Shown here in pieces: positions 629-60,220 of a stretch of DNA of 64,000 nucleotides. The notes beneath the pieces were generated by a model. The model worked only from the letters and a program-made list of their open reading frames with translations, was not told where the DNA came from and did no database searches. The stretch's first letter is position 1, and every line of letters begins with the position of its first letter. A program made the position numbers and the translations under genes. This DNA is from Pseudomonas sp. LRP2-20 (GTDB lineage Bacteria; Pseudomonadota; Gammaproteobacteria; Pseudomonadales; Pseudomonadaceae): the NCBI RefSeq assembly GCF_024349685.1, contig NZ_AP025944.1, positions 5,028,001 through 5,092,000 on the forward strand, read 5' to 3'.

Positions 629-777
629 TGCACTGGCCACTTCGCGGGTAAATCGGGGCGCCGAACCGCCGCACAAAGTGGACCGCCCCCAAGGGTTGGA
701 TTGGTGTCCAACTTCTTGGGGGCAGCCCAAAGCGAGAGCCTTGTGGGAGCGGGGTTACCCGCGAAGTGGCCAGTGCA
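629..777. repeat. Inverted REP pair with a mini-element in its loop
   Basis: The 23-bp arms at 629-651 and 755-777 are exact reverse complements with a TTCGCGGGTAA core of the P. putida REP type. The pair lies between two convergent genes, where such hairpins are often placed. A palindromic element at 679-729 occupies the loop. Confidence 0.85.
679..729 (-). mobile_element. 51-bp palindromic MITE-like element related to the IS3-family element at 58785
   Basis: The ends read TGGACCGCCCCCAAGG and CTTGGGGGCAGCCCA and are nearly perfect inverted repeats. A 3-bp direct repeat AAG flanks the element (676-678 and 730-732). Read on the minus strand it corresponds to the copy at 45388-45439, with a diverged centre and a changed base at the termini. 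It has no coding capacity, so any movement would need a transposase supplied in trans. It may also work as a terminator-like hairpin between the two convergent genes. Confidence 0.75.
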
Positions 778-3205: not shown

Positions 3206-3691
3206 TCAGTCGCGGAAGTTGTTGAACTGCAGCGGCATGTCGAATTCCTTGGTGCGCAGCAGGGCAATGGCTTCCTGCAGGTCGTCGCGCTTCTTGCCGG
3301 TGACACGTACCTGCTCGCCCTGGATGGCAGCCTGGACCTTGAGCTTGCCATCCTTGATGGTGGCGACGATCTTCTTGGCCAGGTCCTTGTCGATGCCTTC
3401 GCGGAACTTGGCTTCCTGTTTCTTTTCCTTGCCCGACGCGTACGGGTCCTTGGTTTCCAGGCACTTCACGTCGATCTTGCGCTTGACCAGCGCCAGGCGC
3501 AGGATTTCCAGCATGGCTTCGAGCTGGAACTCTTCCTCGGCGGTCAGCACCACGGTCTGCTCCTTGTCCTTGAACTCGAAGCTGCCCTTGCCCTTGAGGT
3601 CATAGCGGCGGTCGAGGTCCTTGATGGCGTTGTCGACCGCGTTCTGCACTTCGTGCTTGTCCAGTTCCGATACCACGTCGAACGAAGGCAT
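3206..3691 (-). CDS. yajQ: YajQ-family nucleotide-binding protein
   Basis: The 161-residue product starts [19 protein letters not shown] and contains RRYDLKGKG, both hallmarks of the UPF0234/YajQ family, at the usual family length. Homologues bind nucleotides, and in Xanthomonas and Pseudomonas have been reported to bind cyclic di-GMP. The fold is two ferredoxin-like halves. It has no signal peptide and is expected in the cytosol. It is divergent from the panE-like gene across a gap of about 100 bp that should hold both promoters. Confidence 0.92.
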
Positions 3692-44329: not shown

Positions 44330-45334
44330 ATGACAATGATGTTTACCCAACCCTCCGCGTCGTTGCGGCGCGTCAGCATCCTGGCCATTGACAAGGTGTT
44401 CGCTTCGACCTTGATGCAGGCCAAGGATTTCTTCCATCTCGCCAGCCTGCGCTACAGCAAGCAGCTGGGCCTGGGCTTGCAGCCCATGTTCGAGATCCAT
44501 CTGGTGAGCCCCGATGGCCAGCCGGTGGACAGCTTCAGCAATGTGCAGTTGCCGGTCGATGGAGGCCTCGACGATGCCGACGTGATCATCCTCCCGGCCT
44601 TCTGGGAAGATTTCGACAATCTGCAGCAACGTTATCCACAGGTGCTGCCATGGCTGCGCAAACAGCACGCCCGTGGCGCGGTGTTGTGCGCCGAAGCCAG
44701 CGGGGTATTCTGGCTGGCCGAATCCGGCTTGCTCGACGGCAAGGAGGCGACCACCTACTGGCGCTTCTTCAACAGCTTCGCCGAGCGCTTCCCGAAGATC
44801 CGCCTGAACCAGGACAAGCACCTGACCGACGCTGACAACCTGTACTGCGCTGGCGGTACCACTTCAGCCTGCGACCTGTACATCTACCTGATCGAGCGCT
44901 TCTGCGGCGCCAACGTGGCGCGTGCCGTGGCCCGCGACATCCTCTACGAAGTGCAGCGCAACTACACGCCAGGGCGCATGGGCTTCGGCGGCCAGAAGCT
45001 GCACCAGGACCTGATCATCCTGCAGATCCAGCACTGGCTGGAAGAACACTTCGCCGACAAGTTCCGCTTCGAGGACGTGGCCCGCAACCATGGCATGAGC
45101 ATCCGCAACTTCATGCGCCGCTTCCAGGGGGCGACGGGTGACAAACCGCTGCACTACCTGCAGCGGTTACGCATCGAGACGGCCAAGGGGCTGCTGTCGA
45201 GCACGCGCAAGAGCATCAAGACCATCAGTTACGAGGTCGGCTATGACGATGCGAGTTTCTTTGCGCGGTTGTTCCGCCAGCATACCGAGCTGTCGCCGAA
45301 CCAGTATCGCCAGCAGTTCATGCAAGAGGCATGA
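44330..45334 (+). CDS. GATase1-AraC (GlxA/FtrA-like) transcriptional regulator
   Basis: The 334-residue protein has an N-terminal DJ-1/PfpI-like class I glutamine amidotransferase domain (about 12-190; GAVLCAEASGVFWLAESGLLDG at the nucleophile elbow carries Cys before EASG) and a C-terminal AraC DNA-binding domain (about 235-330; ARNHGMSIRNFMRRFQGATG, then YEVGYDDASFFARLFRQH). Such proteins sense small amino compounds. The target genes are unknown. ATG 44330 is used, with ATG 44336 and 44339 close behind. Confidence 0.9.
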   Translation: MTMMFTQPSASLRRVSILAIDKVFASTLMQAKDFFHLASLRYSKQLGLGLQPMFEIHLVSPDGQPVDSFSNVQLPVDGGLDDADVIILPAFWEDFDNLQQRYPQVLPWLRKQHARGAVLCAEASGVFWLAESGLLDGKEATTYWRFFNSFAERFPKIRLNQDKHLTDADNLYCAGGTTSACDLYIYLIERFCGANVARAVARDILYEVQRNYTPGRMGFGGQKLHQDLIILQIQHWLEEHFADKFRFEDVARNHGMSIRNFMRRFQGATGDKPLHYLQRLRIETAKGLLSSTRKSIKTISYEVGYDDASFFARLFRQHTELSPNQYRQQFMQEA

Positions 45335-45344
45335 GGCCAATGGG

Positions 45345-45500
45345 GCTGCTGCGCAGCCCATCGCCGGCAAGCGCGGCTCCCACAAGGTGGACTGCCCCCA
45401 AGAAGTTGGACAAAAAATCCAACCCTTGGGGGCAGTCCAAGGTATTGCGCAATACCTTGTGGGAGCCGAGCTTGCCGGCGATGGGCCGCAAGCGGCCCCA
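45345..45500. repeat. REP pair interrupted by a mini-element
   Basis: Left REP about 45345-45384 (CAGCCCATCGCCGGCAAGCGCGG...) and right REP about 45458-45500 (TGTGGGAGCCGAGCTTGCCG...). Without the insert the spacer would read CACAAGGTATTGCGCAATACCTTGTG, itself a perfect palindrome. Confidence 0.85.
45388..45439 (+). mobile_element. 52-bp palindromic MITE, internal-deletion derivative of the IS3-family element
   Basis: The first 45 bp are identical to the left end of the IS (58785-58829), and the last bases GGGGGCAGTCCA are identical to its right end. A 3-bp direct repeat AGG flanks it (45385-45387 and 45440-45442). The whole is a palindrome with a CAAAAAAT centre, with no coding capacity. 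It lies between convergent genes, so its hairpin may also affect termination. Confidence 0.88.
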
Positions 45501-45505
45501 GGATC

Positions 45506-46600
45506 TCAGGGCTTGTGCGCGCGCGCCAGGAATTCGTGCGACTGCATTTCCAGCAAGCGGCTCAGGGTCCGCTGGAACTCGAAGCTCAGGCGCCCGCCGG
45601 TGTACAGGTCTTTGAGCTCCACCTCGGCCGAGATGATCAGCTTGACGTTGCGGTCGTAGAACTCGTCCACCATGTTGATGAAGCGGCGGGCGATGTCGTC
45701 GGTGGTGACGCCCATCTGCTCCACGTTGCTCAACAGCACGGCATGGAAGATCTTGCCCAGTTCGATGTAGTCGTTCTGGCTGCGGGGGCCGTCGCACAGG
45801 GCGCGGAAGTCGAACCAGGCCACGTCGTCACAGGTAAGCAGGGCATTGATCGGGCGATTCTCGATCATCAGCACGTCGTTCTCGACCGCCTGGGTGCACT
45901 CAGGGGTCAGCGCCTTGAAGCTGGCGCGCAGGCTCTGGTGCGCCGCGTCATCGAGCGGGTAGTGGTACAGCTCGGCCTGCTCCAGGTGACGCAGGCGGTA
46001 GTCGACCCCGCTGTCGACGTTCACCACGTCGGTGTACTGCTTGATCATGGCGATGGCCGGCAGGAAGCGCGCGCGCTGCAGGCCGTCCTTGTACAGGCCG
46101 TCCGGCACGATGTTGGAGGTAGCCACGAGCGATACGCCGTTCTTGAACAACTCTTCCATCAGAGTGCCGAGGATCATCGCGTCGGTAATGTCGGACACGA
46201 AGAATTCGTCGAAGCAGATCACCTTGGCTTCTTCGCTGAAGCGTTTGGCGATGATGGTCAGCGGGTTTTTCTCGCCCTTGAGGGTTTTCATTTCCTCATG
46301 GACGCGCTTCATGAAGCGGTGGAAGTGCGTGCGCATCTTCTGCTTGAACGGCAGTGCCTCATAGAAGGTGTCGACCAGGTAGGTCTTGCCGCGCCCTACT
46401 CCGCCCCAGAAGTACAGGCCTTTGACCGGCGTCTGCTCCTTCTTGCCGAACAGCTTGCCGAACATGCCCGGCTTGTTGTTCTGCGCGTGCACCAGGTCGT
46501 CGTACAGACGCTGCAGGTGACGAACCGCAGTTTCCTGCGCCGCATCATGGAAGAAGTCGGGACGTTTCAGATCTGCTTGATATCGTTCTAGGGGCGTCAT
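45506..46600 (-). CDS. zapE: ZapE/AFG1-type divisome ATPase
   Basis: The 364-residue P-loop protein has Walker A FWGGVGRGKTYLVDTFYEAL, Walker B VICFDEFFVSDITDAMILG, and a sensor region SLVATSNIVPDGLYKDGLQR. The start MTPLERYQADLKRPDFFHDA matches ZapE. ZapE interacts with FtsZ in E. coli under stress. It follows trpS and a terminator, so it is probably separately expressed. Confidence 0.93.
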   Translation of the reverse strand: MTPLERYQADLKRPDFFHDAAQETAVRHLQRLYDDLVHAQNNKPGMFGKLFGKKEQTPVKGLYFWGGVGRGKTYLVDTFYEALPFKQKMRTHFHRFMKRVHEEMKTLKGEKNPLTIIAKRFSEEAKVICFDEFFVSDITDAMILGTLMEELFKNGVSLVATSNIVPDGLYKDGLQRARFLPAIAMIKQYTDVVNVDSGVDYRLRHLEQAELYHYPLDDAAHQSLRASFKALTPECTQAVENDVLMIENRPINALLTCDDVAWFDFRALCDGPRSQNDYIELGKIFHAVLLSNVEQMGVTTDDIARRFINMVDEFYDRNVKLIISAEVELKDLYTGGRLSFEFQRTLSRLLEMQSHEFLARAHKP

Positions 46601-58784: not shown

Positions 58785-58829
58785 TGGACTGCCCCCAAGA
58801 AGTTGGACAAAAAATCCAACCCTTGGGGG
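58785..58829 (+). promoter_or_regulatory. Hairpin at the left IS end, spanning the inverted repeat
   Basis: CCCCCAAGAAGTTGGA pairs (one bulge) with TCCAACCCTTGGGGG around CAAAAAA, just before the orfA ATG at 58834. Impinging transcripts would fold here and hide the ribosome region, a known protective device in other IS. The same 45 bp form most of the mini-element at 45388. Confidence 0.65.
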
Positions 58830-58833
58830 ACCT

Positions 58834-59352
58834 ATGGGCAAGTACACAGAGCAGTTCAAGCTCACAGCCATCACCGCTTACCTGGATGGCAATAATGGCT
58901 TCCGAAAGGTAGCCCAACATTTCGGTATCGACTTCAGCCTGCTGCGCCGATGGGTTTCCAGCTATCAGCGCAATTCCAGCCTTCCTCCACGTTCGCCTGG
59001 GCGGGGTTATGACGACGGTTTTAAGCGGCAGGTGGTCAGCTACATGCACGAGCATCGTCTTTCTATGCGGCAAACCGCAGCGCATTTTGGCCTCGGCCAA
59101 TCGTCGCGGATAGGCAACTGGCAGCGGCAGTACTACAGTGGTGACCTTGTAGCTCCCGTCGACCGCCAGAAAAAGCCGATCAAAGTGCCGAAGAAGATCA
59201 AACCTGCAAAACCCACAGATACCGACGACTCGCAAAAGTCCCGAGACCAACTGATCGCGGAGCTCGAATACCTGCGCATGGAGAATGCTGTTTTAAAGGA
59301 GCTCAAGGCTTTACGGGAGGAAAAGGAACGAATATCGGGGAAAAAGCCCTGA
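58834..59352 (+). CDS. IS3-family OrfA (HTH helper protein)
   Basis: The 172-residue protein starts MGKYTEQFKLTAITAYLDGN, has two HTH-like repeats (FRKVAQHFGIDFSLLRRWVS and MRQTAAHFGLGQSSRIGNWQ) and a leucine-zipper-like tail ending in ELEYLRMENAVLKELKALRE. OrfA binds the IS ends. The ATG follows the end hairpin, and no strong ribosome site is visible, consistent with low expression. The frame ends at 59352, just after the slippery site. Confidence 0.93.
   Translation: MGKYTEQFKLTAITAYLDGNNGFRKVAQHFGIDFSLLRRWVSSYQRNSSLPPRSPGRGYDDGFKRQVVSYMHEHRLSMRQTAAHFGLGQSSRIGNWQRQYYSGDLVAPVDRQKKPIKVPKKIKPAKPTDTDDSQKSRDQLIAELEYLRMENAVLKELKALREEKERISGKKP
59341..59346 (+). other. Programmed -1 frameshift slippery site (AAAAAG)
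   Basis: AAA AAG in the orfA frame (59341-59346) lies two codons before the orfA stop. A -1 slip reads into the orfB frame as GKK-ALIVSRLKRRFPLPDLL, giving the OrfAB transposase normally made by this family. Confidence 0.75.
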
Positions 59353-59381
59353 TCGTTTCCAGGCTCAAGCGTAGATTTCCT

Positions 59382-60188
59382 TTGCCTGACCTGCTGGGGC
59401 TGGTCGGGCTGGCTCGCAGTACCTTTTATTATCAGGTGCAAAGCCAGCAGAAGCCGGACAAATATGCCGAGCTTAACGAGAAGATTCAGCAGATCTATCA
59501 CAAAGAGAAAGGGCGCTACGGCTATCGACGCGTTGCACTCGTGATTAGAAAGGAGGGGGTGCAGGTCAACAAGAAGGTCATCGAGAAACTGATGGCTGCC
59601 CTAGGGCTGAAGTCACTGGTACGCCCCAAGAAATATCAGTCCTACCGAGGTGCCGTGGGCAAGATAGCGGCGAATTTGCTGGAGCGAAATTTCGTCGCCC
59701 AGCGTCCTAACCAAAAATGGGTGAGTGACGTAACCGAGTTCAAGGTGGCTCAACAGAAGCTCTATCTTTCGCCAGTGATGGACTTGTACAACGGGGAAAT
59801 CATCGCCTATGAGACGGCTAGCCGCCCCCAGTACAGCCTGGTTGGAAATATGCTGGATAAGGCACTCAATACCTTGGGAGAAAAGCCGAAGCTAGTGCTC
59901 CACACCGACCAGGGATGGCAGTACCAGCAGGCTCAATATCGTCACAAGCTTCGCAGTCGCGGCGTGAAACAGAGCATGTCTCGTAAAGGCAATTGCCTGG
60001 ACAATGCGGCTATGGAAAGCTTCTTCGGGACGCTCAAGTCAGAGTTTTTCTACCTAAAGCGTTTCGAGAGTATTGATGAATTGAAAGCAGGCCTGGATGA
60101 GTACATTCACTACTACAACCATGACCGCATCAAGCTGAAGCTCAATGGCCTGAGCCCTGTCGAGTACAGGACCCAGGCGGCAGCTTAA
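59382..60188 (+). CDS. IS3-family OrfB (DDE transposase catalytic domain)
   Basis: The 268-residue frame (-1 to orfA, open upstream to the slippery site) has an rve-type integrase core. The DDE residues are Asp in NQKWVSDVTEF, Asp in LHTDQGWQYQ and Glu in CLDNAAMESFFGTLKSEFF, with HTH_21-like EKGRYGYRRV before them. It ends VEYRTQAAA. TTG 59382 is only a nominal start. The working product is expected to be OrfAB. Confidence 0.94.
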   Translation: MPDLLGLVGLARSTFYYQVQSQQKPDKYAELNEKIQQIYHKEKGRYGYRRVALVIRKEGVQVNKKVIEKLMAALGLKSLVRPKKYQSYRGAVGKIAANLLERNFVAQRPNQKWVSDVTEFKVAQQKLYLSPVMDLYNGEIIAYETASRPQYSLVGNMLDKALNTLGEKPKLVLHTDQGWQYQQAQYRHKLRSRGVKQSMSRKGNCLDNAAMESFFGTLKSEFFYLKRFESIDELKAGLDEYIHYYNHDRIKLKLNGLSPVEYRTQAAA

Positions 60189-60220
60189 AACTGTCCAACT
60201 TTTGGGGGGCAGTCCAACTT

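Follow-up and report, generated by a model that had tools for sequence, protein, structure and literature searches.

MITEPsy1, a 100-bp element of P. syringae, has been shown by trapping to move (PMC3189936). As described there, it resembles the 52-bp element reported here in being short, in its IS-related terminal repeats and 4-bp target repeat and in belonging to Pseudomonas; it differs in being about twice as long, in having ends like those of ISPsy2 (listed, with a question mark, as IS5) and in its target, CTAG or YTAA (PMC3189936). Insertion sequences that target REPs include ISPsy8, IS1397 and ISKpn1 of the IS3 family, and ISPpu9 and ISPpu10 of the IS110 family (PMC1525189). Compared by description, ISPsy8 is like the IS resident at the present locus in being associated with REPs, which ISPsy8 interrupts at a fixed position, leaving 3-bp direct repeats; but ISPsy8, ISPpu9 and ISPpu10 are described as inserting in the REP itself, whereas the insertions analysed here lie just outside the REP head (PMC1525189). 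ISPpu9 is found in REPs and, like the resident IS, has a folded 5′ leader, which in ISPpu9 likely buries the ribosome-binding site (PMC8450116); ISPpu9 differs in its long leader, two small RNAs and IS110 family membership, and the leader of the present IS may have a comparable role.

REPINs are likewise small, palindromic and intergenic elements of Pseudomonas (PMC3116915), and other MITE-like repeat families are known from strains SBW25 and Pf0-1 (PMC2718517). Unlike REPINs, the present element is made of IS ends and sits inside a REP doublet. A literature search that covered few subscription journals returned no paper describing this element.

The 52-bp element and the resident IS

The window (the whole stretch of DNA that was analysed, 64,000 nucleotides) contains the following features:

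45388..45439, + strand: 52-bp palindromic miniature element (prefix and suffix identity to the resident IS ends; hairpin z -7.47/-8.33)
45385..45387, no strand: left target-site repeat AGG (read from the sequence)
45440..45442, no strand: right target-site repeat AGG (read from the sequence)
45342..45383, + strand: left REP arm, with terminal CTCCCAC 4 bp from the element edge (sequence and measured distance)
45459..45499, - strand: right REP arm, with initial GTGGGAG (sequence)
58785..60216, + strand: resident IS3-type element, 1432 bp, with ACT/ACT target repeat (ORFs, profile matches, end comparison)
58834..59352, + strand: orfA, 172 aa, HTH_Tnp_1 and HTH_28 (domain matches; start codon read from the sequence)
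59382..60188, + strand: orfB, 268 aa as listed from TTG, rve integrase core, NF033516 (IS3 family) above cut-off
58792..58829, + strand: IS left-end hairpin, with the end of its 3′ arm 4 nt upstream of the orfA ATG (sequence and folding)
58815..58829, + strand: left copy of an imperfect direct repeat, TCCAACCCTTGGGGG, in the hairpin 3′ arm (read from the sequence)
60194..60209, + strand: right copy of that repeat, TCCAACTTTTGGGGGG, in the right IR (read from the sequence)
679..729, - strand: second, degenerate short element of the same family, 51 bp, with AAG/AAG flanks, which an earlier note on this DNA did not include in its finding

The two arms, which we take to be REPs, enclose a near-perfect palindrome whose last 15 bases are the reverse complement of its first 15. 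The earlier note had matched the element to both ends of the resident IS and had placed each between direct repeats. Both observations are borne out: the first 45 bases are identical to the left end of the IS at 58785-60216 and the last 12 (GGGGGCAGTCCA) to its right end, with AGG/AGG at the element and ACT/ACT at the IS. The same note had the palindrome restored on excision, and removing the 52 bp and one AGG in silico does leave a perfect palindrome, CGGCTCCCACAAGGTATTGCGCAATACCTTGTGGGAGCCG, at the centre of the inverted REP pair (doublet); it is 40 bp long, and the 26 bp given previously are its core. Folded as RNA, the 52-mer gives -38.1 kcal/mol on the + strand and -42.7 kcal/mol on the - strand (z -7.47 and -8.33, respectively), and none of 200 shuffles is as good. 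The 12-base end, with ≤1 mismatch, occurs six times in the window against 0.77 expected. The element lies in the gap between two convergent genes, 44330-45334 (+) and 45506-46600 (-), presumably an AraC-type regulator gene and a zapE-like gene.

The resident IS has the two ORFs of the IS3 family, an HTH-containing OrfA (PF01527) and an rve-core OrfB (PF00665); against NF033516, OrfB scores above the cut-off and OrfA alone below it. IS3 family elements are characterized by a programmed frameshift and a circle intermediate. The earlier note had proposed counting short copies against intact IS. In the window's genome (6.03 Mb, one contig) the count is four to four: the full IS copies are two identical pairs, with five differing positions between the pairs, and the short copies, all different from each other, lie at 45388-45439 and 679-729 of the window, at 986540 (two mismatches) and at 3124256 (decayed). 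The 52-bp element is short and non-coding, has terminal inverted repeats, shares its ends with an autonomous element and is bounded by AGG/AGG, and for its family there are empty sites at other loci, as is usual for MITEs.

One observation concerns the fourth short copy (L010, ~3124256). The DNA before it matches the left flank of a full IS (L003, ~5252951) at 98% identity across 173 bp, and L010 seems to run on, with a 2-base difference, where the L003 IS sits; we take this as a likely related empty site of that IS within one genome.

Distribution and landing sites

When 84,980 species genomes were scanned for the pattern, 20 stretches were obtained, all from Pseudomonas-named genomes except five, which belong to one metagenome bin labelled Paucimonas. 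With a covariance model (E ≤0.01), matches, IS left ends included, occur in 67 of 398 genomes of the genus. Rfam gave three weak matches, all far under the gathering scores. In the plasmid collection two records match the 51-bp consensus (44 and 43 bases covered), and no near-complete IS is present there.

From part of the matches listed we assembled 77 short elements of 43-61 bp, which are a chosen set and no census. Of 81 placed elements, four (L190, L222, L219, L226) were removed, being left ends of an IS or solitary right ends. The set includes weak members (L099 and L108, for example) and counts one orthologous insertion (L074, L075, L076) three times. One of two identical tandem copies from P. 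defluvii (L103) is missing owing to overlapping stretches, and divergent-tip elements and those fetched later, among them the elements of genome G114, are outside the set. The richest genomes within the 77 are G406 (ten elements), G416 (nine), G419 and G170 (seven each), P. wayambapalatensis RW3S1 (five), and G328 and G000 (four each). At E 1e-20, OrfA has no match in G416, G328 and RW3S1, which are complete or single-contig, or in the draft G170; altogether 13 of 20 genomes have none at this threshold, where absence is weak evidence in the several drafts and firmer in single-contig genomes. Genome G103 has IS left ends at contig ends, and for G344, with its eight IS, the matches listed include no short element.

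Sites of the short elements were compared with 22 IS sites from seven genomes. A direct repeat of 3-4 bp borders 38 of the 77 short elements (2000 flank shuffles: mean 4.0, maximum 11), and the other 39 have no target repeat. A REP head, CTCCYAC/GTRGGAG, stands exactly 4 or 5 bp from the edge of 50 of the 77 (31 on the left only, 16 on the right only, three on both sides), and 27 have none at that distance. At the IS sites the REP head is at 4 or 5 bp in 21 of 22 and a target repeat of at least 3 bp is present in 21 of 22. The background for a REP head at 4-5 bp is 50 of 63,800 window positions. The REP-head distances and target repeats of both element types thus show that IS and short elements follow a common target rule: REP head, one base, a 3-4 bp target repeat, then the element.

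Empty sites point the same way for the family. At one other locus, three species have the element and a fourth (G239) has the uninterrupted spacer CACAGGTTTATCGACATGCCTGTGGGAG; the filled site in G010 is the same spacer with two base changes, 51 bp and GGCC, which as a repeat of TGCC has one mismatch. In RW3S1 (CP077096.1) one REP spacer has two filled copies and 20 unfilled matches (19 among the matches listed), and one further unfilled match occurs in the window's genome. That elements of this family were inserted is supported by the target repeats, the one orthologous empty site and the related empty sites in RW3S1.

Spacers such as those of RW3S1 bear on whether a RAYT (Y1) transposase moved the element as a REPIN-type unit. 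It is small, palindromic and intergenic and lies within REP doublets, and in RW3S1 and P. defluvii a duplicated REP spacer may have carried the element along. REPINs, however, are REP-based, being built of inverted REPs, whereas here the 52 bp consist of IS ends and the REPs lie outside; elements of the family sit inside REP spacers. The IS3-type ends and the 3-4 bp direct target repeats also contradict a RAYT origin, which we consider very improbable.

The element's own site was checked at 30 loci (L012-L041, L012 being the window's own), with both flanks placed in 25 (24 from other genomes) and the zapE side only in five (L020, L021, L022, L030, L034). The 29 orthologous regions from other genomes all lack the 12-base end, even allowing ≤1 mismatch; several of these gaps contain other REP-like pairs, none with this spacer. 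The joined-site pattern, with ≤3 mismatches, has no match in 149 genomes. The search for empty sites suggested by the earlier note therefore gave one orthologous site and related ones at other loci and in other genomes, but no clean empty site for the 45388-45439 copy among the 29 regions and 149 genomes.

The same regions bear on the host. A stable hairpin in a convergent gap, with one terminator-like pattern on the - strand against 0.5 expected, could be a hairpin or terminator of the host, placed between the regulator and zapE-like genes and without any tie to transposition. The earlier note had accepted that the same 52 bp at the orthologous loci of all relatives would mark a fixed structural terminator. 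Its absence from the 29 orthologous regions tells against this, and scattered copies with target repeats and the empty sites at other loci contradict it further; we give such a host function hardly any credence.

Origin of the short form

The IS left end carries a hairpin in which CCCCCAAG pairs with CTTGGGGG immediately upstream of the orfA start. A hairpin forms in each of the 16 IS left ends that were folded (-20.7 to -33.7 kcal/mol), and column-wise covariation is not above that of shuffles, 271 of 500 of which reach the score. We propose that the 52 bp represent a MITE of an IS3-type element, in which the left-end hairpin has become fused to the right-end tip. In this mechanism (i) the left IR and a sequence ∼15 bp further in would form the hairpin, with the 3′ arm as an inverted copy of the IR; (ii) the 3′ arm, as a mirror image of the left IR, at the same time repeats the right IR in direct orientation (TCCAACYYTTGGGGG), and from their sequences the 3′ arm and right IR are the likely deletion repeat; and (iii) a deletion between the two would drop the coding body and leave a near-palindrome of ∼51 bp. 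In the intact IS, the hairpin may mask the orfA start in read-through transcripts.

The earlier note had called the element an exact internal-deletion derivative with a junction at a TTGGGGG microhomology. Both element ends fit such a derivative, and an imperfect direct repeat does lie near both IS ends. Yet the IS right end has six G, the IS left hairpin arm five and the 52-bp element five. A TTGGGGG-paired deletion predicts six, so the junction is less simple than the earlier note says; slippage or palindrome correction may account for the missing G. Another mechanism, snap-back copying of the left end, was rejected by reasoning, as its flanking repeats would be inverted, not direct.

Variation among the short elements is consistent with more than one origin. 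Although pairing on TTGGGGG would leave six G, the commonest arm is the five-G class CCCTTGGGGG (23 of 77); eight of 77 have one G more, and about seven of 77, by reading, have an arm of the right-end type. Other deletion products are L178, which at 61 bp keeps more of the right end, and L079 and L186, with a right-end type arm. Palindromes of ∼51-53 bp also occur with the other tips TGAACTG, TGATCTG and TGAGCTG. IS left ends with TGAACTG or TGAAGTG were found in other genomes, and no IS with a TGATCTG tip was seen. Since other-tip elements are of equal size and IS ends are varied, the data point to several births of short elements, and birth by deletion would have happened more than once and in different IS lineages.

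Five palindromes of ∼51-52 bp with other tips (L310, L312, L317, L319, L323; tips TGAACTGCGCCCC, TGATCTGCACCCC and TGAGCTGCGCCCC) may be parallel miniature families. In genome G250, TGAACTGCGCCCC ends are repeated along the contig in pairs with a spacing of ∼1456 bp, a pattern resembling a multi-copy IS from a related group.

Movement in trans or collapse in place

The clearest case for movement of the short form comes from genome G114. Three 53-bp elements with TGAACTG tips (L325, L326, L308), two identical and the third one base different, occupy three sites with different flanks and the target repeats GTGA, GGT and TGA. No matching IS end was found in this genome, the only other match to that tip with ≤3 mismatches having a different tip; the assembly is a draft of about 90 contigs, and the parent IS may have been lost or missed by it. 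Near-identical copies at three sites without a matching IS end suggest spread of the short form as the best reading of G114. The short form is probably mobile now and then through transposase that the IS supplies in trans, with G114 as the best case.

Against such movement, a full IS may insert at the REP edge and collapse in place, so that every short element is a scar that never moves. In favour of scars, the short elements obey the same target rule and have the same target repeats as the IS, and the loop of the resident IS recurs in nine of ten short elements of G406 (CACAAA) and in all seven of G419 (CACCAA). No two of the 77 elements are identical, whereas IS copies form identical pairs; identical short pairs occur outside the set, in G114 and in the P. 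defluvii tandem. The several deletion products and end types also imply repeated births. Moreover, 52 bp seems too short for a stiff duplex to pair both its ends.

Scars alone do not readily explain the three G114 elements. The side that faces the REP also differs, with 5 left and 16 right for the IS against 31 left and 16 right for the short elements (Fisher p 0.0017), a difference that falls to p 0.11 once G344 is removed. Among the 159 listed of 2631 compared pairs, no site has the IS in one genome and a short element in the other. As for loops, one of four short elements in G000 has the AAAAAA loop of its IS, and three in G215 are unlike their IS in both loop and arm. That all short elements are scars is possible, but we think it rather doubtful.

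Our preferred explanation, which we hold to be probable though well short of certain, is that these are IS-derived MITEs at REP edges, which have arisen by collapse again and again and have probably been moved in trans on occasion; other short copies may be full IS reduced in situ. The earlier note had envisaged a parent IS and a derivative both mobile in this genome. Insertion of the family agrees with this and G114 suggests spread of the short form, but the four short copies in the window's genome all differ. For the copy at 45388-45439, derivation from the IS is supported, and movement as a short form and collapse in place are both candidate routes.

A more far-reaching idea, which we regard as unlikely, is that a hairpin possibly guarding transposase expression, combined with the deletion repeat, makes collapse to a ∼51-bp palindrome a built-in property of the IS, lineage after lineage. 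In its bolder form the 51-53 bp product would still move, either extruded or single-stranded, as a hairpin with a stem that is itself an end recognized by the transposase, since ordinary duplex of this length would be too short for end pairing.

The proposed origin would account in simple structural terms for the repeated production, by one IS group, of miniatures of nearly constant length, and its products could serve as natural replicates for the study of MITE birth. They also present one miniature element nested in another repeat system, the REP doublets, where the landing site is defined to within about one base. Should the 51-53 bp form move on its own, which G114 suggests, a transposase of this kind would be acting on a very short substrate.

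Two minor observations concern short elements and their REP surroundings. In P. defluvii (L103), identical short elements at 3310 and 3453, 143 bp apart in near-identical REP surroundings, are probably a local duplication. In two related species (L276/L277), an inverted-REP spacer and its short element lie in opposite orientation, as if flipped between the REP arms.
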